Positions 2,944-36,148 of a stretch of 39,660 nucleotides of DNA are shown here, piece by piece. This stretch comes from a virus, in the IMG/VR virus record IMGVR_UViG_3300032242_001167, positions 1 to 39,660 of that record; one strand, given 5' to 3'. The notes below the pieces were generated by a model, which saw only the letters and a program-made list of their open reading frames with translations, ran no database searches and was not told the DNA's origin. Position 1 is the first letter of the stretch. Every line of letters begins with the position of its first letter. The translations under genes and the position numbers were made by a program.

Positions 2944-5900
2944 ATGCCGACATACACGATCACTGCGCCCAACGGACTTACATATAGTATTACTGGTCCC
3001 GCAGGGGCTAGCCAGCAAGATGTAATTAATCAGGTGCTTGCCCAGCATCCCGATGCTGGTACGCCGCGCCAGAAAAACTTTGTAGAGCAGATACCGCTTG
3101 TTGGCGGTTTAGTGAACTATGCTGTTGATCCCGGACTGACCGCAGGTAGCGCACTTGCCGGTGCTGTTGGTTCGTCCCTCACGGGCTTATTTGGGGCCAA
3201 CAATACTGCGTCTAATCTAGCAAATGAGGCTGCATCCGGGCTTTCCAGTCTAAGGTCTTCTACGGCGCGAGCTAATGCAGATAGACAGGCCGCTATTCTG
3301 CAGCAGGGGGCGAAGCAGGGCGTACTCGGGGGTATTACTTCCGCAGCGCGGGCTGCTACCATTGATCCTCTAGATACCGCTGCGAATGTAATCGGCGAGC
3401 TGCTGCCGTATGCTGCTGCTGAAGTTTTTACTGAAGGTGCGGCTACTCCAGTGGTTATGGGCGCACTTGGTGCTACCTCGGGCGCGGGTGATATCAAAAG
3501 CCGTATTTACGATGCTACCAAGGAAGAGTTCCTTAAGCACGGTGCGTCTAAGGAAGACGCAGAAGCAGCAGCCCAAAAGGCACAAGCCTATGGCGGCTCT
3601 AACACCGGTATGATTGCGCTAGGCGGCGTTATCGGTGGTGTCGCTGCTAATATGGGTCTGGCTAAGGGCGTAAGCGAAGCAATAGCCAGCCGGGTAGCGA
3701 CTAGAGCCCTTACCGACGAAGCAGCGGAAAGCTTTGGTAGGGCTGCCATCAAAGGTGCGGCGGAAGCCGGTGGTCTCGGTGCCCTGCAAGCAGGTCAGGC
3801 CCGCGTAGCGCAGAACATAGCGTTGCAAAATGCCGGGTCTAATACTCCTACCTTTGAGGGTGTTGCGCAGGAAGCTACTTCGGCGGCTATTCCCGGTGCT
3901 ATTCTCGGCGGCGCGCTAGGCGGATTTGGTCGTAACCGTGGCGTGGAACCGGCTGGTGAAGCTGGCGAAGCCGGTAAGAAGCCGAGTACACCCCCTACGC
4001 CGCCCAGCGATAACGCTGCCACAGAGCGGGCGTTTAACCAGCAAGTAGAAGCGTTTATGCGCGATAGCGCAGAGCGCGGCGAACCGATTGATTTGCATAC
4101 AGCGATGAAGACCGTAGGCCGGTCGTTTGTCGAACCTACAGAGTCCGTAGAACCTACGCGTGAGCAGGCTGCTCCTTTGGTGGACGAGCATGCACGCCTT
4201 ACTAGTCTTCTTCAGGACCCCCAAGCAATGGGTGCGTTCGCCAAGCAGATTGGGGATACGCCAGAGACGGCAACTAGTTTCGTCCGCAACCGCCTGCAGG
4301 ATATTAGCAATGCACTCGGTGTCGATACACCGGAGATGGTGCAGATCGCTAACCAGTTGGAGAAGCTGAAGACTCAGCGTGATAACGCACGCCAAGCGCT
4401 GAATGATCCCGAGTATATGGCCGATCAAGTTGCCAGCGGGGCACACCCCGACGATGTGGCGGCGGGGCTTAACAAGTATATCGACAATATCAATACGGAG
4501 ATCGAAAAGCTTAACCCGCCCGTAGAGGATACAAATGCTCCGCAGCTTAAGTATATGGCTGGTCGGCGTGCTAAGGATACTCTGACTCCATCGTTGTTTG
4601 GCGAAGAAGAAGCTCCTAAGGTAGAGCAGGGTCAGCTCGACAAGCGCGAGCAGTTTGAGCAGGCAAAGCTCGAAACGAGTCGGGAAGAGCGCGTAGCCGC
4701 ACAAGAAGAGGCCGCGCAGCAGGCAACAAAGAAGGGCCAAGAGCGCGCGGAGCAGCTAGAGCAACAGACGCGCGATACCCTTGACAAGCTTGAGTCCAAA
4801 TTGCGTGCGGAGCATCCGGATAATAGCAACTACCAGATTGTCTATAACAAGGACCAGACGTTCCCGTTCAAGCTTATGGGCTCGGACGGCGTACTGCGTT
4901 TTGAGTCACGTAACCTCGATGACTTCCAGAACCGTATCTACGAGGGCATGAAGCCCGATGCCGAAGAGCCGCTGACTCCGTATATTGAGACCCCTAGCGG
5001 TGGGCGCGTAGAGAAAACGCCGTCTCCCTATAACGAAGAAATCCAGCAGCTTACGTCGGATATCGACGAGCATGTAGGTACGAACATAACCCCGAATGAA
5101 CGGGCTGAACTGCTTGGCATGCTCAAGTCGGATGCTGCCATCACTGGTAACCGTAAGGGAACCTATAAGGGTCTTGAGCAGAAGTACCGCGAAGCGGAAA
5201 GCGCGCTGCGCAACGCTAAAAGTGAAGCAGACCGTAAAGCAGCGCAAGCCGAGCTTGTGGAAGCGGCGAATAACCTTCGTAGTGCTACGCGTAGCAGGAT
5301 TACGGACCCCATCCGTGCGCGCCTGCAAGAGATCATTGAAAACCGTCAGGACGAGCAGTTCGGTGCTAAGCAGCGTGGCGAAGCCGCCAAGGTGCAAGAA
5401 CGCCTCGGCCAGATGGAAGGTGCTGGCACCGCAGCCGAAGAGCGCGAACAGCGCGAAGCGGCCATCGACCTCAGGGAGTCTATCCCACAGAAGTACCGTG
5501 CGGGCGAGAAGGAAGCTGGCGGCATCAAAGCGGATGAAGCTCAAAAGGTGGTGGCCGACATCACCAAAGGCTGGAGGAGCGATGCCAAGGTAAACGTCGT
5601 CCAGTCGGTAGCTGACCTACCCCCGGATGTTCAGCGTGCTATCGAGCGAGACGGCCAGCAGGACGCACTGGGTATTATCACTCCGGATGGCACCGTCCAC
5701 CTTACCGCCGACAACATGCACTCCTTGGAAGATGCTAAGGCTGCGCTATTCCACGAGACGCTGGGCCATCTCGGCCTAGAAAAGTTATTCAGAGACAATC
5801 TGGATAACGCGTTAGAGGCGATGTATCGCGGTAACAAAAAGCTTAGGGAAGATACTGACGCTTGGCGCGAGCAGAACTCCGACGCCTACAAGGATGATGC

Positions 5901-8900
5901 TAACCCCCTAGCCCGTGCCGTAGAAGAAGTCCTCGCTGGTCGGTCGGAAGCTGGCAGGATTGAGGCTTCGCTGCTTACCCGCATCGCGGGAGTTATCAAA
6001 AACTTTGCCCGCCGTATGGGCTTTAAGCTTGATATGTCGGATAGCGAGATCAACGCTATCCTGTCTGCGGCCCACGACCGAGTGGTAAACGGCGAAAATG
6101 AAAGCGCCTTCGTCAAGGGCCTGCGGTATATGGCAGCAAAGCGCCCCGCAGATATCGGCCTGAACGAAAAGAATGCCGAAGAGAAGATTGCTAAAAGTCA
6201 GAACCCGCGTGAAATAGCCGGGGGGGTGACCACTCTTGTCAAGGCATCGCATGATCCCGATGGATTTAAGCGAGTATTTAACGCGCGTTATAACACGCTT
6301 AGCAAGAAAGCTATCCGGCTTGTCTCGACTGCGCTCGACTCTAATACCCTAGTCTGGCTGGTTAGGGATCGTATTCCGGCTCTCGGCAATATCAAAGATA
6401 AACTGGACGCGATGCGCTCGACTATCTTTGGCTACACCAAGGATATTAACGCTACGCATCGCGAATGGGAGTATTACAACCGGAAAAACCCGGAAGGGGG
6501 CGAAGCCCTTGCCAACCTTATCCATTACTCGCGTCTTACTCAGGTAGACACTTCTCTGCACCCCAACGCCGCAGAGTATATCAAGAACGATCCGTGGGTT
6601 AATTCTCCTGCCGTTACGGACAAATCAGGCCGTATCGCCAATATTCAGTATGCGTATAAGCTGCGCAGCGAGATGGAGGCGGCGGAAAACAGCAAAGGTG
6701 CTGGGCTTGACCTCTATAAGCGTGCCCGAGACGACTACGCACGTATGTTCGACAAAGAACGGCAACTGCTGCTCCAGAAGATCAACGCGTATGTCACTGA
6801 CCCCGCAGAGAAGATTGCCCGTACCAAGGCAGTGAATGACTTTTTTGCGGAGACTAAGCAGCCGGTTATCTACTTCCCGCTTGGCCGCTTTGGTAAGTAC
6901 CAGATGCGTGTTGGGTCTGAAGTACAGCACTTTGAGTCTGAGTTTAACCGCGATTTAGCAGTTGAACAGGAAAAGGCTAAGCAGGCAAATAGCAAGAAGC
7001 CTAAGCAGGTTACCGCTGTAGACTTAAGCGATGATCCGCTTAATCAGGGTGCCATGACTGGGAGGGAAGGTGCGTCAGCGGCGTACACTAACGTCCTTAA
7101 ACTGCTGGAGTCTAATAAAGCTTCGAGCGTTGACGACTTAAAGGATCAGTTACGCCAGTTACACGCGGACAATCTCGGCTCGTTTAACCCTCGCAAGCGT
7201 ATGATCCATTCTGAAAACCGTGCTGGTTTTACCGCCGACGCGGCGCGCGTGTACGTTAGCCACATGACGAGTAGTGCTTATCGGCTCGCCCGTATGGAGC
7301 ATGCAGATCAAGTGCGTGGGGCTATCGGGTCTGCCTACGCTTCGCTGGCGGGTAATCCGGATAGAGGGAAGCTTTCTATCTACGTAGACGGGCTGGCGAG
7401 GCAGATTGCATTTGAGTTGGCCCCGAGCAGCCGCCGTAATATCGGGGGTATCGACTGGAATAAGTGGGCTAGCATCGGCACCAAGGCCACGTATATGTGG
7501 TTCCTGTCAAGTCCGAAGGCTTGGCTCATGCACCCGACGCAGCTTGTAGTCTACGGTACTCCTGAACTAGCTAAGCGTTACGGAGTCGCTGCCACTACGG
7601 CTATGATGGGTAAGTACGCGAAGATCATCTTTAGCGGGCGCGGCCTTGGGTTCGACCGTGTGGACCGGGATGGGCAGCTTGTTCGCGTGTGGGATGATGG
7701 GCCGTCGTTTGCCCAAGGCCAATACTTCGCTGGACTGAAGGACGCGAACCTTAAGGACGCGTTGTCCTATTCATATGACGTTGCGGAGTCCAGAGGCACA
7801 CTGAATAACACCCTTGTGCGCGGGCTGATGGACAAGTCCAGCAAGTCAAGCGAACTCTACGCCAACAAGGGTCCGGCTATGTGGCTGCCTAATGCAACCA
7901 AGGCAGTCTTCGACTTCATGAGCGAGGGCTTCCACCAGTCTGACCGCATTGCGCGCCAGATCATGCTGGCCTCGGCTACTGAGCTTGCCTACAAGAAGGC
8001 AATCGGCGAAGGGCTGTCGCACACTGATGCCCGCGAGCGTGCAGCTAAGGAAGCTAACGAAGCTACGCTTAACGCGATGTTTGACTATTCGCAGTTCAAC
8101 CGTCCTGCTGTGCTTAAGAACCCCTTGGGTCGTCTCGTCGGGCAATTCCAGACCTACACAATCAACTCGACCACCTACATGATGCGGAATTTCCGTGACA
8201 TGTTTAAGCGCATAGCGCCGCAGGACCGTCCCGGTGCCGCTAAGGCGTTCTTGGGTACAATGCTCATGTCGTTCATGTTTGCGGGTACCACGGGTAGTCT
8301 GGGGTATGGTGTCGGTGCTGGTATGGCGCAGGCATGGCTCGATGAGTTCTATCCGGACAGGCCCCCCGAGATGCGTGATGTAAACCTATGGTTCCGTACG
8401 CATTTTATCCCTGAGCATTTCGGCGGGCAGGGGTCAACGCTTGCTCGCGCTATCGAGATGGGGCCTGCCTCTGCGCTCACTAATATGAACCTGCAGGAGG
8501 CAGCGAGCTTGCCCGGTGCGTGGCTATACGGCGGTGCAGAGTCCAAGACTGACCGTGATTGGCTAGATAACACCCTGCTAGATGCGTTTGGCCCCGCTGT
8601 CGGTCTGGCTCGCAGCACGGCACAGGCGTTCGATGACTTTAATCGCGGCGATGTAGCGCGCGGCCTTGAGACCATGAGCCCCGCTCTGATTAAAAACGCC
8701 CTTAAGGCGGAGCGCTATGCAACTGAAGGTAACGTAAACCCTTACTCGCAGGGTGTTATCCGCGACGCTGCAGACTTCGGCGCTGGCAGGCTGCTATGGC
8801 AAGCGTTTGGTGGCACGGCCACGGACGATGCCCAGCTTGAAAAACATGTAATGCTCGCCAACAACGAGATTAAGCGCATGGAAAACCAGAAAAAAGCGGC

Positions 8901-9168
8901 TACCGAGCCCTTTGTCCTCGCGTATATGAAGTACCAAGCCAACCCTACGGATGCCGGTTACGAAGAGTATGTACGTCGCCTTGCGGCCATACATAAATAT
9001 AACGAGCGTAATGCCAGCAACCCGACTATGCAGATTACCGAAGAATCTCTGCAAAGCAGCTTAAACAACAAGCTCAAGAACAAGGAGCTTTCGACCAGCA
9101 TGCACGGTATGTCGGTCACGACCAAGAACGCCCCGCTGGCGGCGCAGCTACTCAACGAGAACCAATAA
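2944..9168 (+). CDS. Large polyvalent virion protein with HETLGH metallopeptidase-like motif
   Basis: 2074 residues, the largest gene in the window. It starts with a small domain (about 1-38, TITAPNGLTYSITGP then GASQQDVINQVL) seen at the N-terminus of many phage ejected proteins. An Ala/Gly-rich, partly hydrophobic segment (about 45-330) follows, then long charged coiled-coil stretches (about 430-900). A zinc-protease-like FHETLGH sits at residues 936-942. The C-terminal region (about 1500-2070) contains SPKAWLMHPTQL and NPLGRLVGQFQTYT blocks typical of large polyvalent protein-associated domains. Known polyvalent proteins are packaged and injected with the DNA to act on host targets; that role is inferred here. 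Ile/Gly-rich patches (e.g. about 1765-1790) may be membrane-active. The terminator hairpin starts 5 bases after its stop. Confidence 0.8.
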   Translation: MPTYTITAPNGLTYSITGPAGASQQDVINQVLAQHPDAGTPRQKNFVEQIPLVGGLVNYAVDPGLTAGSALAGAVGSSLTGLFGANNTASNLANEAASGLSSLRSSTARANADRQAAILQQGAKQGVLGGITSAARAATIDPLDTAANVIGELLPYAAAEVFTEGAATPVVMGALGATSGAGDIKSRIYDATKEEFLKHGASKEDAEAAAQKAQAYGGSNTGMIALGGVIGGVAANMGLAKGVSEAIASRVATRALTDEAAESFGRAAIKGAAEAGGLGALQAGQARVAQNIALQNAGSNTPTFEGVAQEATSAAIPGAILGGALGGFGRNRGVEPAGEAGEAGKKPSTPPTPPSDNAATERAFNQQVEAFMRDSAERGEPIDLHTAMKTVGRSFVEPTESVEPTREQAAPLVDEHARLTSLLQDPQAMGAFAKQIGDTPETATSFVRNRLQDISNALGVDTPEMVQIANQLEKLKTQRDNARQALNDPEYMADQVASGAHPDDVAAGLNKYIDNINTEIEKLNPPVEDTNAPQLKYMAGRRAKDTLTPSLFGEEEAPKVEQGQLDKREQFEQAKLETSREERVAAQEEAAQQATKKGQERAEQLEQQTRDTLDKLESKLRAEHPDNSNYQIVYNKDQTFPFKLMGSDGVLRFESRNLDDFQNRIYEGMKPDAEEPLTPYIETPSGGRVEKTPSPYNEEIQQLTSDIDEHVGTNITPNERAELLGMLKSDAAITGNRKGTYKGLEQKYREAESALRNAKSEADRKAAQAELVEAANNLRSATRSRITDPIRARLQEIIENRQDEQFGAKQRGEAAKVQERLGQMEGAGTAAEEREQREAAIDLRESIPQKYRAGEKEAGGIKADEAQKVVADITKGWRSDAKVNVVQSVADLPPDVQRAIERDGQQDALGIITPDGTVHLTADNMHSLEDAKAALFHETLGHLGLEKLFRDNLDNALEAMYRGNKKLREDTDAWREQNSDAYKDDANPLARAVEEVLAGRSEAGRIEASLLTRIAGVIKNFARRMGFKLDMSDSEINAILSAAHDRVVNGENESAFVKGLRYMAAKRPADIGLNEKNAEEKIAKSQNPREIAGGVTTLVKASHDPDGFKRVFNARYNTLSKKAIRLVSTALDSNTLVWLVRDRIPALGNIKDKLDAMRSTIFGYTKDINATHREWEYYNRKNPEGGEALANLIHYSRLTQVDTSLHPNAAEYIKNDPWVNSPAVTDKSGRIANIQYAYKLRSEMEAAENSKGAGLDLYKRARDDYARMFDKERQLLLQKINAYVTDPAEKIARTKAVNDFFAETKQPVIYFPLGRFGKYQMRVGSEVQHFESEFNRDLAVEQEKAKQANSKKPKQVTAVDLSDDPLNQGAMTGREGASAAYTNVLKLLESNKASSVDDLKDQLRQLHADNLGSFNPRKRMIHSENRAGFTADAARVYVSHMTSSAYRLARMEHADQVRGAIGSAYASLAGNPDRGKLSIYVDGLARQIAFELAPSSRRNIGGIDWNKWASIGTKATYMWFLSSPKAWLMHPTQLVVYGTPELAKRYGVAATTAMMGKYAKIIFSGRGLGFDRVDRDGQLVRVWDDGPSFAQGQYFAGLKDANLKDALSYSYDVAESRGTLNNTLVRGLMDKSSKSSELYANKGPAMWLPNATKAVFDFMSEGFHQSDRIARQIMLASATELAYKKAIGEGLSHTDARERAAKEANEATLNAMFDYSQFNRPAVLKNPLGRLVGQFQTYTINSTTYMMRNFRDMFKRIAPQDRPGAAKAFLGTMLMSFMFAGTTGSLGYGVGAGMAQAWLDEFYPDRPPEMRDVNLWFRTHFIPEHFGGQGSTLARAIEMGPASALTNMNLQEAASLPGAWLYGGAESKTDRDWLDNTLLDAFGPAVGLARSTAQAFDDFNRGDVARGLETMSPALIKNALKAERYATEGNVNPYSQGVIRDAADFGAGRLLWQAFGGTATDDAQLEKHVMLANNEIKRMENQKKAATEPFVLAYMKYQANPTDAGYEEYVRRLAAIHKYNERNASNPTMQITEESLQSSLNNKLKNKELSTSMHGMSVTTKNAPLAAQLLNENQ

Positions 9169-12294: not shown

Positions 12295-12525
12295 TCAAGA
12301 CAGAGCGGTAATATATATCTCGACCTGCGAGGCGATATTGCTACCCGGCTCCCCGTTGCCCCTGAACCAGTTGTAGACTGTCTGCCGGGTTACCCCAAAC
12401 CGCTTAGCTACGACTGCTACAGGGACACTATGCTTAATACATAACCTACCAAGACGTACGCCTAGCCTCCGACCATCGGCGGTACTGTTCTGTTCGACGA
12501 GGTTGAGACTATACCCTTGGGCCAT
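12295..12525 (-). CDS. Small HTH DNA-binding regulator
   Basis: 76 residues, with a helix-turn-helix at about 30-55 (VPVAVVAKRFGVTRQTVYNWFRG) like Cro/XRE or homeodomain-like phage regulators. A short C-terminal helix follows. It lies between the SSB-like gene (2 bp away) and the primase gene (59 bp away), so it is co-transcribed with replication genes. It is the only compact, dedicated DNA-binding regulator visible in the window, which makes it a candidate for binding the dispersed palindromes; that link is pure inference. Confidence 0.8.
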   Translation of the reverse strand: MAQGYSLNLVEQNSTADGRRLGVRLGRLCIKHSVPVAVVAKRFGVTRQTVYNWFRGNGEPGSNIASQVEIYITALS

Positions 12526-14295: not shown

Positions 14296-15842
14296 GAGGA
14301 ACCGCTCACGATTTGCCGGTAAAGGTCGATCACCTTCTCGTGGTTGTCGATGTTGCTCCGGAGCATGCTGTACAGCCTGCTCTCTACGTCGCTACCGCAG
14401 ATATGCACCACTGCCATGCTGTTCTTCTGGCCGGGGCGGTTGATACGGGCATTGGCTTGGAGATACGTCTCTACGCTCGTAACGGGCGCATACCAGATAA
14501 CAGTGTTAGCCTCCGTCAGGGTAAGCCCATGCGAAGCTGCTGCTGGCTGGATAATCAACACGCGCGGCTCGGGGTTGTTCTGGAACCGCTCAACGATATC
14601 CGCCCGCTTGTTCGGGTTGACCTTACCGTTGATGACATCGCAAGTGATCTTATGCTTCTCTAGGTAGGCGCGCAGTAGCTCGATGGTATGCGTGAAGGGC
14701 ACAAACACCAGCACCTTGTGGCTGGCTTCCTCGACCACCTCTAGCACCGCGTTCAGGCGGTTGCTTACATCGAACTCCAGCACCTCTCCAGTGTCCGTGT
14801 AGACCGCGCCACCCGAAATCTGTAGGAGCTTATTGATCTTAGCCGCCGCGTTAATGGCGCTAACCTCTTCCCCATCAGCTTCCATAAGCATCTGGTTCTT
14901 AAGCTGAGTGTAGTACTTCTTTTGCTGCGGAGTCAGGGGTACATCCCGGTCCATCATCGTAACGTCGGGCAGGTCAAGGCAGTCTTTGCGCTCGAACCGG
15001 ATAGCTGGCTGCAGGACTTTATGCACGATGCTCTCTGCCTGCGGCTTGGATACCCACTTGAACTGTGTCGCCTTATACATGACACTATCGCGGAACTGGC
15101 CGAAATACTTAGGGCAATTCAGGGGGTTAACTAGTTTAGCAAGGCCGTACGCATCGAGTGGGCTCTGTGCTGCTGGCGTACCTGTAAGCATCCACAGTCG
15201 GGGGTTGAGGGCGTCAATGACTTCCTTGAACACCTTCCAGCGGTTTGTCATAGGGTTCTTGTAGGCGTTAGCTTCGTCCACCACGATCAGGTCGAACCCG
15301 CCGTTGATGATCGCATCCTTAACGATAGACAGTCCGTCAAAGTTAATAACTACGAACTCAGACCCAGCGCCGATTATCTTCTCGCGCTGCTTCGCATCGC
15401 CGTATGCCACGCTACAGCTACGGTGCATAGCGAACTTGAACAGGTCCTGCTGCCATGCTGCCTTCATGATCGACAGCGGCGAAAGCACCAACACGCGACG
15501 GACCAAGCCGAGAGACATGAGATAATCCGCAGCCCAGATGACGGATGCCGTCTTGCCAGTCCCCTGCTCATTAAAGCAGAACGCCCGCTCGTGGAGCGTG
15601 AGGAACGAGGCAGTATCCTTCTGGTGCGCGAACGGTGCATACTTGCCCGTCCACTTGTACTTAGCCCTGATGGGGGATGGGACATTAGGGATACCCAGTC
15701 CTGCCAGAGCTTGTGCTTCTTTCTGCCCCCAGTGGACAGCTACAGTGCCCTCTTCGACCAACGCGCTCTTGGGGATGGCATCAGTTATAGCCTCAGGGGC
15801 ATGTGTCTCCACGAGGAGAACTTTATCGTCGATGATCCGCAT
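14292..15842 (-). CDS. SNF2-type DEAD/DEAH superfamily 2 helicase
   Basis: 516 residues, a full-length phage SNF2-like helicase. In order: HQKDTASF (73-80, Q-motif region), Walker A NEQGTGKT (91-98), VLSPLSIMKAAW (motif Ia), DEAN at 189-192 (Walker B, DEAH-box variant) and LTGTPA (219-224). The C-terminal RecA lobe has LIIQPAAASHGLTLTEA and QANARINRPGQ (motif VI). The family uses ATP to move along double-stranded DNA. In phages it is found with replication and recombination genes, where it may remodel forks or remove bound proteins. Its stop lies within the dyad of the tRNA promoter. Confidence 0.92.
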   Translation of the reverse strand: MRIIDDKVLLVETHAPEAITDAIPKSALVEEGTVAVHWGQKEAQALAGLGIPNVPSPIRAKYKWTGKYAPFAHQKDTASFLTLHERAFCFNEQGTGKTASVIWAADYLMSLGLVRRVLVLSPLSIMKAAWQQDLFKFAMHRSCSVAYGDAKQREKIIGAGSEFVVINFDGLSIVKDAIINGGFDLIVVDEANAYKNPMTNRWKVFKEVIDALNPRLWMLTGTPAAQSPLDAYGLAKLVNPLNCPKYFGQFRDSVMYKATQFKWVSKPQAESIVHKVLQPAIRFERKDCLDLPDVTMMDRDVPLTPQQKKYYTQLKNQMLMEADGEEVSAINAAAKINKLLQISGGAVYTDTGEVLEFDVSNRLNAVLEVVEEASHKVLVFVPFTHTIELLRAYLEKHKITCDVINGKVNPNKRADIVERFQNNPEPRVLIIQPAAASHGLTLTEANTVIWYAPVTSVETYLQANARINRPGQKNSMAVVHICGSDVESRLYSMLRSNIDNHEKVIDLYRQIVSGSS

Positions 15843-22555: not shown

Positions 22556-22757
22556 GTAGCTGCTCCATATCCGGTAGGTATCCCAGTAGTGTAGTTATAA
22601 TTCTGGGATGTTCTCGTACTAACGCGCCTAACAGTGTTAGGCTGGCCTGCGCCATATACTCAACGTACTCGTTATCAGCACGTTGAATATACTGGTCTTG
22701 CTTGTTCGTGCTGTCTTTAGCGTATCGACTACCATGTATACGCTTTGAGGATTCCAT
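22515..22757 (-). CDS. Hypothetical 80-residue protein with an operator-like palindrome inside its frame
   Basis: ATG 22757 lies inside the end of the 280-residue gene, and the frame ends inside the start of the 292-residue gene, a 41-bp overlap. The composition is protein-like (KDSTNKQDQYIQRADNEYVE, then ALVREHPRIITTLLGYLPDM). The palindrome at 22626-22642 is translated as LTLLG. If it is a true gene, the palindrome is coding; if not, the palindrome lies in a 70-base leader of the 292-residue gene. No clear ribosome site is visible. Confidence 0.5.
   Translation of the reverse strand: MESSKRIHGSRYAKDSTNKQDQYIQRADNEYVEYMAQASLTLLGALVREHPRIITTLLGYLPDMEQLHDEQVYARRSPPP
22626..22642. promoter_or_regulatory. 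17-bp palindrome GCCTAACANTGTTAGGC, copy 1
   Basis: Perfect dyad with central G on the plus strand. It is the only 17-bp copy not just before a ribosome site: 70 bases before ATG 22555 and inside the 80-residue frame. Confidence 0.85.
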
Positions 22758-23571
22758 CAAGCTTGTCCTTCATATCTGCACGAACGTATTCGCTGTCTTT
22801 GATATCGTCGATATCTGCACCCAGCATAGCTACTTCGAGCGCCTTGCGCGCTGCCTCCAGCTTGGGATCGTTCGCCACGTTAAGGTGCGTCAGCATCTGG
22901 CACATCTCCTGTGCATTTGTCACGAACGAATTGTGCCAGCGGGTCTTTTCGGTGAGCGCCAGCTTGTCAGTCATGCCGGTCAGCATCGTATGCAATTTAT
23001 CCCACACAGACTTAGTGGCCTCCACCACACGCTCGTGCATGCTAGCTTCGTACTGCTCGACCAACTCTTGGAGTTCCTGATTGGGTGCGTCGATGCGGAA
23101 GTCGCCGCTAAGCGGCACCGGGGAGAACACCATGCGGAACCCGAACTTGCTATGCACCTCGTCTGCTGACGGATAGTCAGCGGGGTTAAACAGTGCGCCT
23201 GAGTGTGCCTGCGCTTGTGTTACGTGTGTAGCGTAGTTCTTGACGAAATCATCGACCATCTCATGAAACTTATCCCGCCGCGTGTTGGCCTCGCTCTTGT
23301 AGTCAAGGAACAGGCTGGATGGCAGTAGGCGCGGACCCCGATCAGACCACGGGAGCGTACGCGTGTTGTGCCAAGTGCGGCAAGCCGCCGCAAAGTCAGC
23401 GATATCCTTACGGGCACTGGTGCCCGCCATGAGGTTCTTCTTGTACTGCCCTGCATCCGCAGTGGCATTGTTGTCCGCAGCGACCTTGGCGCTGATGTCC
23501 TTGTCGGATACGCTTGCAGTCCACACAGAGATGTTGAGTTCGACAAGCATGGAAGAGTTCTGAATGCTCAT
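22729..23571 (-). CDS. DUF3150-like protein of the MoxR/VWA cassette
   Basis: 280 residues. It starts MSIQNSSMLVELNISVWTA; the xELNISVW opening resembles DUF3150 proteins, which in phages and bacteria are encoded next to MoxR/CobS-like ATPases and VWA proteins. Most of the rest is helical, with RTWHNTRTLPWSDRGPRLLPS and a long coiled-coil region (about 160-270). No catalytic motif is visible. The DUF3150 assignment is from memory of the start and gene order, so tentative; the neighbouring AAA+ and VWA genes are the main support. Probable role: adaptor or substrate of the chaperone-like pair. Confidence 0.6.
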   Translation of the reverse strand: MSIQNSSMLVELNISVWTASVSDKDISAKVAADNNATADAGQYKKNLMAGTSARKDIADFAAACRTWHNTRTLPWSDRGPRLLPSSLFLDYKSEANTRRDKFHEMVDDFVKNYATHVTQAQAHSGALFNPADYPSADEVHSKFGFRMVFSPVPLSGDFRIDAPNQELQELVEQYEASMHERVVEATKSVWDKLHTMLTGMTDKLALTEKTRWHNSFVTNAQEMCQMLTHLNVANDPKLEAARKALEVAMLGADIDDIKDSEYVRADMKDKLDGILKAYTW

Positions 23572-23591
23572 GGTATTTGCTCCTTGGTTGG

Positions 23592-23810
23592 TTATTCGTC
23601 CAGTAGGCGTTTCATTGCCGCTTTTATTCTAGGTAGTACTTCTAATGCATAGGCGTACGCGCCGAGTTCGTCAGGGCCAAACGAAAGAATATAGTCGTGG
23701 ATGTTTAGGTCATCCCGGTAGTATACTCTCCATACATCGTCATGTCCGCGCTCTATACTTAGCGGTACGTATCGTTCGTCACTCTCGTTTTCCTGCGAGC
23801 TTTGCTCCAT
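23592..23810 (-). CDS. Hypothetical small phage protein
   Basis: 72 residues. Its start overlaps the preceding gene. The core reads ISIERGHDDVWRVYYRDD-like beta strands (actual LSIERGHDDVWRVYYRD) followed by FGPDELGAYAYALEVLPRIKAAM, a helix. The layout is like that of the 68-residue gene at 24011. It may belong to a family of small proteins amplified in this region. Function unknown. Confidence 0.65.
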   Translation of the reverse strand: MEQSSQENESDERYVPLSIERGHDDVWRVYYRDDLNIHDYILSFGPDELGAYAYALEVLPRIKAAMKRLLDE

Positions 23811-24024
23811 GGTACGTCTCCGGGCTTAGCAGGGTGAGGGTCAAATCCAATCGGTCCGCGTCGGACCATACGTGATGGGTTCTCTCCTCCCGGTATCCGT
23901 TAGACTCGTAGAACTCAGACTTCGCAAGAATGCCCAGAAACGTCAGCGCGTCGTCTACGTCCATCACTAGCCTGTTATAGCCGAACGGCACTACAGCCTT
24001 TGTAACTGTTTTACATGCGCTCAT
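23779..24024 (-). CDS. Hypothetical small phage protein
   Basis: 81 residues from ATG 24024, chosen over the longer frame because the ATG overlaps the end of the previous gene and GCAGG lies 6 bases upstream. It contains VPFGYNRLVMDVDDALTFLG then YREERTHHVWSDADRLDLTL. No known domain is visible. It lies between two other small genes with overlaps on both sides. Confidence 0.62.
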   Translation of the reverse strand: MSACKTVTKAVVPFGYNRLVMDVDDALTFLGILAKSEFYESNGYREERTHHVWSDADRLDLTLTLLSPETYHGAKLAGKRE

Positions 24025-24217
24025 TGTACACCTGCTTCCTTTCGTATTCGCTCTTGGCTTTCGCCACGAGAGCATGTGCTGCCTCCCGCGCGCCTACTTC
24101 TTCGGCTGCGTATACCCGCGCTTTCACGATATGCTTAGCGCCGTAGTAAGTCACATTCCACCACATCCCAGCGCCGGGTGTTACTGATAGCAGCGTGTAG
24201 GGTTCAGTCTTCAACAT
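24011..24217 (-). CDS. Hypothetical small phage protein
   Basis: 68 residues. ATG 24217 overlaps the VWA gene end by 14 bp. It starts MLKTEPYTLLSVTPGAGMWW, then VTYYGAKHIVKARVYAAEEV and an Ala-rich charged helix. The beta-then-helix layout matches the neighbouring small genes. Function unknown. Confidence 0.65.
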   Translation of the reverse strand: MLKTEPYTLLSVTPGAGMWWNVTYYGAKHIVKARVYAAEEVGAREAAHALVAKAKSEYERKQVYNERM

Positions 24218-29900: not shown

Positions 29901-30590
29901 TCACTTGCTCAGGCGAGGATCACAGCCGAGGACCTTGAGCGCCGCAGTGATATGGTGCTGCGCCATTTCGATCTTCTCGTCGCCTTGCACCTTCTCGTTA
30001 GCCTTCCACAGCTTGAGCAACTCCTCCACATTACGAAGCAGAGGCGAACGCGAGGGGTTAACCTCACCCTTAACCGCGCCGCCTTCGCTACCCTCGCCGC
30101 TGGAGGGAACCTTGACCTTGCTACCGAGGATATCACGCGTACCAGTAGCAAGCTCGCTTGCGTATGTGGCGACACGCTTCCAGTTAGGCGAAGGATTGGT
30201 ACCGATGCCGAGACGCGCGCGAAGGGTGGAGTGATGAGCCACACGCTCGTCGAAGATAGCCAACTCGCTTGCATCAGTGATGCCTTCGCGGCGCTGCGGG
30301 ATATCGCCCAGCATATTGAACCAACCCTTCGGCAGAACCTCGTTCAGCTTGAAGGCGTAGGCCATGTTAGCCTTGCGAACGTCACCAGTGGCAGCAGCAT
30401 AAGCAGACCGGACTTCCGCAAGCGACTGATCCCTAACCGAGGACTCGACAGACGCGAGTAGTTGCATATGTTCCGCTTCCGCAGCAGCCGAGGCTTCCGC
30501 GCTTGCCGCTTGGATAGCCGGGCCGACATCAGGCCGAGCAGCAGCGAGAGCGAGAGGAGCCGAGTTAGCCGCATTAGTGTTCTTTGCCAT
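29901..30590 (-). CDS. First leftward early protein, unknown function
   Basis: 229 residues. It has an Ala-rich N-terminus (MAKNTNAANSAPLALAAARP) and a helical acidic part (SAEASAAAEAEHMQLLASVE). The central part has LNEVLPKGWFNMLGDIPQRR and DERVAHHSTLRARLGIG; the loop SGEGSEGGAVKGE separates a C-terminal helical bundle. It is the first protein gene leftward of the divergent region, with two palindromes in its leader (30614 and 30763) and a terminator downstream, so it looks like a separately controlled early unit. Host take-over or regulation is possible; no motif proves it. Confidence 0.72.
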   Translation of the reverse strand: MAKNTNAANSAPLALAAARPDVGPAIQAASAEASAAAEAEHMQLLASVESSVRDQSLAEVRSAYAAATGDVRKANMAYAFKLNEVLPKGWFNMLGDIPQRREGITDASELAIFDERVAHHSTLRARLGIGTNPSPNWKRVATYASELATGTRDILGSKVKVPSSGEGSEGGAVKGEVNPSRSPLLRNVEELLKLWKANEKVQGDEKIEMAQHHITAALKVLGCDPRLSK

Positions 30591-30613
30591 TAGATTGTAC
30601 CTTTCCAGATATA

Positions 30614-30630
30614 GCCTAACACTGTTAGGC
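30614..30630. promoter_or_regulatory. 17-bp palindrome, copy 7
   Basis: GCCTAACACTGTTAGGC on the plus strand, 23 bases before ATG 30590. Its minus-strand GCCTAA ends the 25-codon leader frame. Confidence 0.92.
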
Positions 30631-30702
30631 CCGAGTGAAGCGAGCCATCCGGCCCGCGAGATAGGTCTCTCCCCATCCTGTTACTGTTATAACCCAACCC
30701 AT
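30625..30702 (-). CDS. Possible 25-residue leader peptide
   Basis: ATG 30702 to TAA within palindrome copy 7, with AGG 8 bases before the ATG. It translates as MGWVITVTGWGETYLAGRMA and ends RFTRA. Two of the confirmed small genes end in the same way inside a palindrome, which supports it as a leader frame. There is no independent evidence of coding. Confidence 0.3.
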   Translation of the reverse strand: MGWVITVTGWGETYLAGRMARFTRA

Positions 30703-30762
30703 TAGATCGACCTAATCGGGCTTAGGCATTCTTTTCTATAGCGCAGCTTTGGCTTTGCGTGA

Positions 30763-30779
30763 GCCTAACAGTGTTAGGC
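30763..30779. promoter_or_regulatory. 17-bp palindrome, copy 8
   Basis: GCCTAACAGTGTTAGGC on the plus strand, 133 bp upstream of copy 7 and about 20 bp upstream of the TATAGA box, so it could act as a promoter operator. Confidence 0.9.
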
Positions 30780-33560: not shown

Positions 33561-36148
33561 TGGCTATTTACAAGTCACTGAGCCAAGCGCCGCTGGGTCT
33601 GCAGCCGGGTGAATTATCGCAGGAACCCGCGCTTGAAATCCATATCGAGGACCCAGAGAGCGTAGATTTGTCGCTGGATGGGCATCATCTGCTCCATATC
33701 GACCCCGATGCGGAGAATGAGGACGATTTCTCCGCAAATCTTGCGGAGCAAATGGATGAGGGGCAGCTTACAGAGCTTGCCGGGGACCTTCTCGGGGACT
33801 TTGACGACGATACTGCGTCACGTAGAGACTGGGTTCAGACTTATGTAGATGGTCTTGAGCTTCTTGGCATGAAGGTTGAGGACCGCACGGAGCCTTGGCC
33901 CGGTGCATGCGGTGTATACCACCCCCTTATGAGCGAAGCGCTGATTAAGTTTCAGGCCGAGACCATGATGGAGACGTTCCCGGCTGCTGGTCCGGTGCGC
34001 ACTGAGATTATCGGAGAAGAAACGCCCGCCGTTGCGGAAGCCGCACGCCGTGTGGAAGCTGATATGAACTACCAGCTTATCGACCGCATGGTTGAGTACC
34101 GTCCGGAACATGAGCGGATGCTGTGGGGCCTTGGCCTTGCCGGTAATGCGTTCAAGAAGGTGTATTTTGACCCTTCGCTTGGCCGTCAGGTCTCTATGTA
34201 CGTACCTGCAGAGGACGTTGTAGTCCCTTACGGTGCCACTTCACTGGAAACTTCGCCCCGTATCACGCATGTGATGCGTAAGACCCCCAATGAACTGCGC
34301 CGTTTGCAGGCTGCAGGCTTCTATCGTGACGTTGATCTGGGCGATCCGACCGATACTTTCGACGAGATTGAGAAGAAAATCGCCGAAAAGATGGGGTTCC
34401 GGGCCTCTACTGATGACCGTTTCAAGCTGCTTGAGATGCAGGTTGAGCTTGTTTTGCCTGATGATAAGGAAGCAGAGGATGAAGCAGCCGATGAAATTGC
34501 CCTCCCTTATATCGTTACTCTGGAAAAGTCGTCTCAGACAATCCTTGCAGTTCGTCGTAATTGGGACCCAGCAGATAAGAAAAAGCTTAAGCGAAATCAT
34601 TTCGTGCACTATTCATATGTGCCGGGTTTTGGTTTTTACGCTTTTGGACTTATTCATCTTATCGGTGCTTTTGCTAAGTCTGGCACCAGCATTATTCGGC
34701 AGCTTGTTGATGCTGGCACTTTATCTAATCTACCGGGTGGCTTTAAGACTAAAGGTCTCCGCATCAAGGGCGATGATACACCTATCGCACCTGCTGAATG
34801 GCGTGATGTAGACGTTGCTTCGGGGACTATGCGTGACAACTTCATGCCGCTCCCCTACAAGGAACCGAGTCAGGTACTGTTTACGCTCCTGCAGAATATC
34901 GTGGAGGAAGGTCGCCGGTTTGCTGGCGCTGCCGATCTCCAAATCAGCGATATGTCGGGTCAAGCGCCAGTCGGGACCACACTGGCTATCCTTGAGCGTA
35001 CGCTGAAGACTACGAGCGCAGTTCAGGCACGCATCCACTACGCTATGAAGCAGGAGTTTCGTCTGCTTCGGGATATCATCCGCGACTACACGCCGGATGA
35101 GTACGACTACACCCCCGTCAAGGCTACGCCCAAGGCCAAGAAGGCGGATTACGACCTTGTAGACGTTATCCCGGTCAGCGACCCTAATGCTGCCACCATG
35201 GCGCAGAAGATCGTACAGTATCAGGCAGTCCTGCAATTGGCCCAGACGGCCCCGCAGATTTACAACCTGCCTTATCTGCATCGTCAGATGCTCGATGTAC
35301 TGGGTATTAAGAACGCAGAGAAGCTTGTTCCGCTCAAGGACGGCGATGATATGCAGCCGCGCGACCCCGTGTCCGAGAACATGGACATCATCAACGGTAA
35401 GCCGGTCAAGGCATTTATCGCGCAGGACCACCAGTCGCATATCGCTGTACATACGTCGGCTATGCAGGACCCGAGCATCATGAAGCTCGTCGGGCAGAAC
35501 CCCAACGCTATGGCTATGCAGGCTGCAATGGCCGCTCATATCAACGAGCATATCGCGTTTGAGTACCGCAAGCAGATTGAAGAGCAGGCGGGCGTCCCGT
35601 ACCCGCCGCCGAACGCGCAGATGGACCAGAACACCGAGGTCCAAATCTCGCGGCTCGCTGCCGCTGCCGCACAGCAGCTTCTGCAGAAGAACCAAGCACA
35701 GGCAGCCCAGCAGCAGGCTCAGCAGCAGGCCCAAGACCCCATCATCCAGATGCAGCAGGCTGAGCTTCAGCTTAAGCATGGTGAACTTGAGCTTAAGAAG
35801 CAGAAGCTTGCTGTCGAAGCAGCAGCCAAAGCGGATCATATCGAGATCGAGAAGGAACGTATTGCTGCCCAGAAGGAGATTGCTGGGCTTCAGGTCGGCG
35901 CGAAGATCGCCACTGATAAGGCGAATATTACCGGTCAGCAGCAGATTGCAGGTCTTAAGGCAGGTATCGACGCGGCGCATAAGGCTTCGATGCTTGAATG
36001 GAACGCCCAACATAAAACTAGCCAGCTTATGCTCCAGCAGCAGCAACAGCAGCACCAGCAGGGGCTCGACTACGCCCAGTTGGCCCAACAACCAAACGAA
36101 GAAGCTGAAGAGCCGGAAGATAACGACCAAGAGGAAGCTAGCGAATGA
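33560..36148 (+). CDS. Portal protein with Gln-rich coiled-coil C-terminus
   Basis: 862 residues, large for a portal. An acidic N-terminus (1-85) is followed by WPGACGVYHPLMSEALIKFQ (113-132), FPAAGPVRTEIIGEE and the clamp/wing region with VPAEDVVVPYGATSLE (about 216-231). HFVHYSYVPGFGFYAFGLIH and DLQISDMSGQAPVGTTLAIL follow. From about 690 the chain is a Gln/Ala/Lys coiled coil. The portal forms the ring through which DNA enters and leaves. Position after the large terminase is standard. The C-terminal extension could be a barrel or core contact. Confidence 0.88.
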   Translation: MAIYKSLSQAPLGLQPGELSQEPALEIHIEDPESVDLSLDGHHLLHIDPDAENEDDFSANLAEQMDEGQLTELAGDLLGDFDDDTASRRDWVQTYVDGLELLGMKVEDRTEPWPGACGVYHPLMSEALIKFQAETMMETFPAAGPVRTEIIGEETPAVAEAARRVEADMNYQLIDRMVEYRPEHERMLWGLGLAGNAFKKVYFDPSLGRQVSMYVPAEDVVVPYGATSLETSPRITHVMRKTPNELRRLQAAGFYRDVDLGDPTDTFDEIEKKIAEKMGFRASTDDRFKLLEMQVELVLPDDKEAEDEAADEIALPYIVTLEKSSQTILAVRRNWDPADKKKLKRNHFVHYSYVPGFGFYAFGLIHLIGAFAKSGTSIIRQLVDAGTLSNLPGGFKTKGLRIKGDDTPIAPAEWRDVDVASGTMRDNFMPLPYKEPSQVLFTLLQNIVEEGRRFAGAADLQISDMSGQAPVGTTLAILERTLKTTSAVQARIHYAMKQEFRLLRDIIRDYTPDEYDYTPVKATPKAKKADYDLVDVIPVSDPNAATMAQKIVQYQAVLQLAQTAPQIYNLPYLHRQMLDVLGIKNAEKLVPLKDGDDMQPRDPVSENMDIINGKPVKAFIAQDHQSHIAVHTSAMQDPSIMKLVGQNPNAMAMQAAMAAHINEHIAFEYRKQIEEQAGVPYPPPNAQMDQNTEVQISRLAAAAAQQLLQKNQAQAAQQQAQQQAQDPIIQMQQAELQLKHGELELKKQKLAVEAAAKADHIEIEKERIAAQKEIAGLQVGAKIATDKANITGQQQIAGLKAGIDAAHKASMLEWNAQHKTSQLMLQQQQQQHQQGLDYAQLAQQPNEEAEEPEDNDQEEASE

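Follow-up and report, generated by a model that had tools for sequence, protein, structure and literature searches.

Stoperators are short repressor sites known mainly from temperate mycobacteriophages. According to the available text of two reports, cluster A phages such as L5 and Bxb1 carry 20–30 of them, most not at promoters; they are asymmetric 13-mers, oriented with transcription and spread genome-wide, and they are bound by a monomeric phage-encoded repressor (Rep) with a helix-turn-helix (HTH) and a stoperator domain, for which an autoregulatory site has been proposed and with which the lineage-specific sites diverge (PMC6550527, PMC9283540). Other repeat arrays appear in excerpts of further reports: the virulent T1-like phages T1, TLS and Stevie have 16–21 copies of a 21–22-nt repeat that the authors likened to stoperators and listed with function unknown (PMC11447400, PMC4319613), the SAS and ESAS repeats of cluster K lie just upstream of non-structural gene starts and may contain the previous stop codon (PMC3203893), and the Nostoc phages A-1 and N-1 have 43 and 21 motifs (PMC4916379). 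Here we analyzed a whole 39,660-bp viral record, IMGVR_UViG_3300032242_001167 (hereafter the window), in which a 17-bp palindrome recurs along the leftward genes. Its array is stoperator-like in that a single likely phage regulator would have many sites away from promoters; it is a variant and not a member of the class, as the asymmetry and orientation of stoperators are absent. All support given below is comparative sequence evidence.

A one-sided palindrome array in the window and its relatives

A sequence-only reading of the window had reported eight perfect copies of the palindrome, confined to the leftward region, and both points were borne out. The 17-mer GCCTAACANTGTTAGGC occurs in exactly eight copies with identical arms, all within 22.6–30.8 kb (Table 1), and 0 were expected from 100 dinucleotide shuffles; tolerating 3 mismatches revealed no further copies in the window. 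Six copies end 14, 18, 18, 19, 22 and 23 nt ahead of an ATG, which agrees with the 14–23 nt given earlier, and one of these ATGs opens an open reading frame (ORF) of only 23 aa. The same reading had GCCTAA acting as the stop codon of the preceding frame in three copies; this holds for two credible genes (copies at 27929 and 28834), and three more copies close ORFs of only 25–32 aa, which makes the number three uncertain.

A scan of viral contigs with the 17-mer alone returned 82 stretches, 80 of which encode relatives of window proteins (tblastn, E ≤ 1e-4 against window proteins). We read 18 of these records whole, which together with the window gave 19 array-bearing records, and used 13 records without the palindrome as contrast; genes were called with a custom script. 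This first set was selected by motif, whereas the searches with the regulator protein and with the AAA protein described below did not use the motif. The array-bearing records represent one lineage, and co-occurrence counts among them are not independent. By these comparisons the array is a lineage-wide system of a little-known environmental phage group; the 11-bp core was found in none of the 20 loci retrieved by the AAA-protein search.

Within the lineage, the shorter core TAACANTGTTA reaches up to 21 copies per relative. Within the site TAACA-N-TGTTA is strict, mostly extended to CTAACANTGTTAG, and the 17-mer is the fullest form. The 11-bp core was present in 9–21 copies in 18 of the 19 records and in 3 copies in the fragment G005. 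When palindromes were searched for de novo, the top rank went to some form of this one in each of the 19 records (window included), and in G005 to the form one base further out.

The layout was compared in 16 records. In every one of them a site lies < 400 nt upstream of the first leftward gene, with the outermost site 28–189 nt before that gene and none beyond on that side. Site density was 2.25 per kb at 0–1 kb, 0.64 at 9–10 kb, 0.27 at 10–11 kb and 0–0.2 beyond. The quality of the outer bases averaged 5.13 of 6 in the first 2 kb, 3.73 beyond 11 kb and 4.65 upstream of the gene. As judged from these records, the array is one-sided, beginning shortly before the first leftward gene and becoming sparser over ~10 kb. 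The gaps between sites were more regular than random (p ≤ 0.05) in 10 of the 16 records. This regularity, and the dispersal of the palindromes in and between genes, recall multi-site partition or silencing systems, in which a DNA-organizing protein of the ParB/KorB style spreads from or bridges its sites for compaction, protection or replication and affects transcription secondarily. The plasmid protein KorB silences at a distance, according to the portion of PMC11790492 available. We consider such a protein quite unlikely here, as the array is strictly one-sided and fades from one gene start, and a ParB_N domain was found in 0 of 14 records.

The 252 sites of 17 records (window included) fell within genes in 105 cases, between genes in 102, over starts in 31 and over stops in 14, compared with 196.9, 41.9, 8.0 and 5.3 expected for random positions. 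Sites prefer gene borders without being restricted to them. The association with ribosome sites claimed earlier survives as a tendency, with 39 of the 252 sites lying 8–25 nt before a start codon versus 8.6 expected, and not as a rule, given the 105 sites inside genes; it is stronger in the window phage than in its relatives.

With cluster A stoperators, the array thus described shares a large number of sites per genome, here putative repressor sites, mostly off promoters (9–21 copies of the 11-bp core in 18 of 19 records; a promoter-like match next to 9 of 211 downstream sites). Unlike stoperators, the palindromes are symmetric, unoriented, largely gathered in one 10-kb one-sided array and often in genes. 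The T1-like repeats likewise occur in phages without lysogeny; as far as the available text goes, they differ from the array in being asymmetric, oriented and mostly intergenic, in TLS ~76 nt before starts, and neither source names a binder in that text (PMC11447400, PMC4319613). The array described here, unlike such virulent-phage repeats left with function unknown, comes with a strong candidate binder. In the accessible part of PMC3203893, SAS are non-palindromic, contain AGGAG and are located 3–7 nt from the start codon, and ESAS consist of imperfect 17-bp inverted repeats with spacers of 4–13 bp; the sites here contain no AGGAG, and 105 of 252 are in genes.

DNA operators versus RNA hairpins

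The earlier reading had offered two alternatives, a repressor/stoperator-type DNA network and a repeated RNA hairpin. The former gains support and the latter does not, on account of non-covarying flanks, frozen codons at in-gene sites, sites upstream of promoter matches and the re-spacing of one relative's sites. These observations argue strongly that the palindromes act as DNA operators and not as RNA hairpins.

Covariation was examined in the 220 sites of relatives other than the 17-mer, with expectations from shuffled columns. Complementary pairs numbered 85 versus 88.8 expected at ±7, 72 versus 72.0 at ±8, 51 versus 54.2 at ±9, 47 versus 50.5 at ±10 and 45 versus 53.4 at ±11, and complementarity at ±7 to ±11 was likewise not significant when G–U pairs were allowed; the pair at ±6 was slightly above chance (187 versus 181.2, p = 0.014). 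The flanks nonetheless show a mirror-image preference, R C C before and G G Y after the core. Such a preference without covariation suggests two half-sites that are read one by one. The centre base, in transcript sense, was A in 122 sites, T in 101, C in 14 and G in 11, with little strand preference.

Three gene families carry a site at a fixed place within the coding sequence: the AAA ATPase (15 of the 17 genes from array-bearing records), the DUF2201 protein (17 of 18) and the family of window gene 22729–23571 (14 of 17), where the reading frame differs from that of the other two. These counts include two near-duplicate records; the codon counts that follow exclude the window and those duplicates. 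Among amino-acid-invariant columns, a single codon was used in 3 of 122 for the AAA ATPase (2 of them in the site), 4 of 105 for DUF2201 (3 in the site) and 6 of 76 for the 22729–23571 family (2 in the site). The bases of the in-gene site hold even where the adjoining residue varies (P, S or A; R or S). The window itself lacks all three conserved in-gene sites. These patterns, with in-gene sites frozen at the codon level, indicate from comparative data that the sites are under selection as nucleic acid.

That the palindromes could serve as RNA hairpins governing translation or mRNA stability draws on the fold of the window 17-mer (7-bp stem, −7.8 kcal/mol), on one fully paired relative site at −6.1 kcal/mol and on the excess of sites 8–25 nt before starts. 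Folding of four natural sites whose flanks do not pair gave just −2.4 to −2.9 kcal/mol, the outer stem is not conserved, genes enclose 105 of the 252 sites, a site stands upstream of the promoter match in 23 of 24 regions (see below) and the centre length is altered in G031; we regard this explanation as extremely improbable. N4 early promoters, of which the 7-bp stem and 3-base loop of the window palindrome are reminiscent, and a repeated element placed ahead of genes also bring to mind promoters for a phage RNA polymerase, either T7-like or of the N4 hairpin type. Against this stand the sites in genes, aligned flanks that show no conserved start region as far as +15, the non-conservation of the stem outside its 5–6-bp core, and the Pfam and PHROGs scans, which found no RNA polymerase among 20 proteins of the window, itself probably a partial genome. 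Such promoters, too, have a very slight chance of being the answer.

A protein can evidently read the 11-bp word as DNA, because TAACATTGTTA, the identical word, is the gel-shift-proven self-regulatory operator of the unrelated plasmid protein MtvA, as given in the available text of PMC11826091. That operator of plasmid pPAD8 serves the negative autoregulation of a MazE-like antitoxin. It is described there as one promoter site bound by a MazE-like protein (PMC11826091), whereas the phages have an array, no MazE domain found in 18 records and a candidate binder modelled as all-helical.

The sequence GCCTAAC/GTTAGGC also fits the R-box consensus of integron attC sites. This candidate was dropped, because the outer bases are free to change among relatives and some sites fall within conserved genes.

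The candidate binder and its variants

The likely binder of the palindromes is the protein encoded by 29901–30590, the first leftward gene and a member of a family without a database match. This family was present in 17 of the 19 array-bearing records and in 0 of the 13 without the array. In the two exceptions, G005 and G011, the regulator slot is probably not covered, because the array runs to the contig end. A search with the regulator protein returned 63 loci, many of whose contigs were already in the motif-selected set, and 62 of them contained the 11-bp core, at a mean of 5.9 per locus versus 0.004 by chance. In 61 of these 62 loci a site lies ≤ 250 nt upstream of the regulator gene. The 17-mer was absent from 50 of the 63 loci, 49 of which have the core, and the sole core-less locus was the re-spaced G031. 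Two copies of the regulator gene occupy the slot in G016 (34000–35690; L018).

The structure model of the regulator is all-helical (predicted local distance difference test, pLDDT, 84), and the family has a strongly conserved NPSxVWxRVRKY helix. No convincing match was found in Pfam, PHROGs, PDB or a viral model library, and no significant fold match. Specifically, the candidate showed neither a convincing sequence match nor a significant fold match to the stoperator Rep with its HTH and stoperator domain, and its weak fold matches are compatible with homology. The window regulator is divergent, sharing 24–34% identity with other family members, and a search of viral contigs with its own sequence found no relative. 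The family was not found in cultured phages with one relative's protein as query, in plasmids with the window protein, or in genome contigs with six exact peptide patterns of one relative's protein.

Alternatively, something else may bind the sites, such as a host regulator, a MazE-like protein or the HTH protein 12295–12525, and the first gene may merely travel with the array. The absence of a recognized DNA-binding domain in the first gene fits this, as does the binding of the 11-bp word elsewhere by the MazE-like MtvA (PMC11826091, available text). The HTH protein, proposed earlier as a possible binder, does not track the motif: its family occurs in 12 of the 19 motif-bearing records and in 8 of the 13 that lack the motif. 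The first early gene is the better candidate on present comparisons. MazE_antitoxin (PF04014) was found in 0 of 18 records, and a host factor does not predict that site sequence and spacing differ between phages, as does the slot gene of a sister lineage. We judge another binder to be improbable.

The spacing of the sites varies between phages. In 22 records the centre has 1 base (3–21 copies, with 0–2 copies at any other spacing up to 7). By comparison, G031 has 18 sites with a 2-base centre, none with a 1-base centre and one with a 3-base centre; its whole site set, on this evidence, has been re-spaced by 1 bp. Several sites in G012 (L095, L096) have an altered, asymmetric centre, with the core CTAAC-AAA-GTTAG or its complement CTAAC-TTT-GTTAG.

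Relatives that keep the genes and lack the palindromes had been named earlier as a refuting condition; among the 13 records without this palindrome, 6 show a different first-slot protein together with an array of their own. The six sister-lineage records (three distinct versions) encode a protein of 284–297 aa in the first slot, whose model, built from 3 sequences, is of mixed alpha/beta type and low confidence (pLDDT 64). No similarity between the first-slot proteins of the two lineages was seen with hhalign (probability 0.1). The sister array is also one-sided, consists of TAAC-N3-GTTA or TAAC-N4-GTTA and starts 125–156 nt upstream of the slot protein; 8–11 of 12–15 matches fall within −300 to +11,000, with 0.4–0.8 matches expected per record, and the sites are looser than those of the window lineage. 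Natural specificity variants are thus at hand, with 1-base and 2-base centres in the window lineage and 3- and 4-base centres in the sister lineage.

Promoter architecture, proposed mechanism and neighboring features

By its gene content the window comes from a tailed phage. Pfam and PHROGs scans of 20 window proteins identified the large terminase (TerL) and portal among the rightward genes, and polymerase A, an SNF2-type helicase, a primase-like protein, a PD-(D/E)XK nuclease, the AAA ATPase and a DUF2201 metallopeptidase/VWA protein among the leftward genes. The window is probably a partial genome, because eight related records with identical ends span 60.5–66.5 kb. Given its replication genes, the leftward unit would be an early unit.

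The regions upstream of the first gene were searched for sigma70-type promoters. The best match outscored all 30 shuffles in 24 of 45 regions, the window not being one of them; apart from L314, each of these convincing regions (23 of 24) has a site upstream of the match. In relatives one operator mostly lies 120–200 nt upstream of the regulator start codon, and a second site lies 29–72 nt before the start in 22 of the 45 regions; the two flank the promoter match ~110–135 bp apart, compared with 149 in the window. Autoregulation is suggested by these operators on both sides of the promoter match. No clear 10.5-bp helical phasing, operator versus promoter or operator versus operator, was seen by eye, with site and promoter positions offset by 1 nt.

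We propose that the palindromes are two-fold symmetric DNA operators, with a half-site RCCTAACA on either side of one centre base, that would be bound, probably as a dimer, by the product of 29901–30590. This protein would regulate its own gene through the operators flanking the early promoter, so that a rising protein level shuts the promoter, and bound copies along the ~10-kb operon would obstruct RNA polymerases already under way; early transcription would end fast and with growing polarity. The downstream sites mostly lack a promoter match, cross gene borders and fade with distance; repression combined with an elongation block, of the kind proposed for stoperators, is the simplest reading. 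We hold an autoregulated repressor at the early promoter, with the downstream sites as elongation brakes, to be somewhat better than an even bet. An early-to-late shut-off in a virulent cycle is favored over lysogeny, because integrase (PF00589), resolvase/serine recombinase (PF00239) and ParB_N (PF02195) were not found in 14 records, several of them fragments; these were the lysogeny genes searched. By these domains, counterparts of the integrase and parABS of temperate cluster A phages were likewise not found in the 14 partly fragmentary records.

Several points weigh against the repressor-and-brake reading. No promoter match above shuffles was found between copies 7 and 8 of the window. A promoter-like match lies beside 9 of 211 downstream sites (4.3%) versus 2.8% of random points, and this small excess, like the start-codon preference, means that a few array sites may act at promoters or starts. 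The candidate has no recognized DNA-binding fold in family and fold searches. Its co-occurrence with the array could reflect common descent within one clade, 17 of 19 versus 0 of 13 not being many independent events, and the slot is not covered in all 13 array-less records. Orientation matters for the elongation block in the best-known stoperators, and the sites here are symmetric; the lysogenic setting in which stoperators are classically found lacks support. The upstream operators, moreover, have their centres, by manual reading, ~55–80 nt ahead of the predicted start of transcription, which could suit an activator.

The first-gene protein might indeed be an activator or antiterminator, with the upstream site turning on the early promoter and the downstream sites keeping or reloading polymerase. 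In 23 of 24 convincing cases the promoter match is preceded by the outer operator and not overlapped by it, and sites occur in the transcribed direction only. However, a promoter-like match is lacking next to 202 of the 211 downstream sites. Antitermination typically works through RNA sites of a single orientation, whereas the palindrome is symmetric and shows no covariation in its flanks. Activation or antitermination is unlikely on this balance, and we retain the repressor with its elongation brakes.

Parts of this arrangement have counterparts elsewhere. GalR, the LacI-family repressor of E. coli gal, has operators that bracket its promoter and no long downstream array; the two operators around the promoter match in relatives resemble this bracketing. 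KorB with its OB sites on plasmid RK2 is one plasmid-encoded global repressor with some operators far from promoters; per the consulted part of the report it is a ParB-family CTP clamp, (PMC11790492), a family whose ParB_N domain was not found here in 14 records. T7 Gp5.7 is a small DNA-binding protein of a virulent phage that represses host-polymerase promoters; it is winged-HTH-like and acts on initiation, and its abstract mentions no dedicated site array (PMC5569994).

At slightly less than even probability, the system is a new kind of switch: a new DNA-binding family, encoded by the first early gene of seemingly virulent phages, with ~10–20 symmetric operators in a one-sided, fading brake array that is re-tuned in concert, and with sites that cross coding sequence in more than one frame, the encoded residues yielding to the DNA site. 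With its binder candidate, natural variants and codon-frozen in-gene sites, the array offers a direct test of whether phages brake an early operon through a fading row of bound operators, and of how ~18 sites and their protein shift specificity jointly.

Table 1 Palindrome copies, a related palindrome and the candidate regulator gene in the window
Feature	Coordinates	Strand	Remarks
Copy 1, centre G	22626..22642		Promoter-distal end of the array
Copy 2, centre C	26739..26755		19 nt before ATG of AAA ATPase gene 25643–26719(−)
Copy 3, centre A	27929..27945		TAA stop of gene 27940–28155(−); next ATG 18 nt on
Copy 4, centre G	28834..28850		TAA stop of gene 28845–29126(−); next ATG 18 nt on
Copy 5, centre C	29141..29157		14 nt before ATG
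Copy 6, centre T	29873..29889		Directly downstream of candidate regulator gene
Copy 7, centre C	30614..30630		23 nt before candidate-regulator ATG; counterpart of the relatives' promoter-downstream operator
Copy 8, centre G	30763..30779		Outermost; ~180 nt upstream of candidate regulator; counterpart of the relatives' site upstream of the promoter match
Related 24-bp palindrome, TAACA/TGTTA half-sites, 2-base centre	25584..25607		Possible off-register site; also a terminator-like score
Candidate site-binding regulator, 229 aa, first leftward gene	29901..30590	−	Co-occurrence with array; all-helical model (pLDDT 84); conserved NPSxxWxRVxxYA helix; no convincing match by family or fold

Outside the array, the window has a lone 11-bp core at 14498, within the SNF2 helicase gene. 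The GC-poor stretch at 29160–29750, between two early genes, has no called gene and is a possible replication origin; a strong terminator-like site lies at 29755–29729(−). The 2074-aa protein of 2944–9168 has partial DarB-like antirestriction (PHROG) and LPD39 (Pfam) matches and is possibly co-injected with the DNA. At the contig end, the opening 30 bases recur at 55 and 109, giving a coding 54-bp repeat unit over positions 1–138.

Among genome contigs, 80 of 97 loci with TerL relatives were kept, mostly from metagenome bins, on which no host assignment was based. The 80 loci yielded neither the regulator nor the 13-mer nor the slot protein of the second lineage; 5 of them had one lone 11-mer, across ~1.05 Mb. 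The relatives' terminase genes (L207–L242) lie in bins of disparate taxa (Euryarchaeota, Saccharibacteria, Bacteroidetes and others), probably as phage contigs binned with the wrong host. Other over-represented palindromes were TAGTG-N6-CACTA (8 copies in G006; L133–L135), AGCT-N5-AGCT (22 in G030; L195–L198) and GCAG-N9-CTGC (14 in G011; L136–L138). The cultured Planktothrix phage Pag-Yong1 (OL906435; L154, L206), a more distant TerL relative, contains 21 copies of GTTCAGNCTGAAC, 17 of them GGTTCAGNCTGAACC; they are scattered through both early and late regions, the ones inspected by eye were intergenic, and they are a possible culturable parallel to the array.

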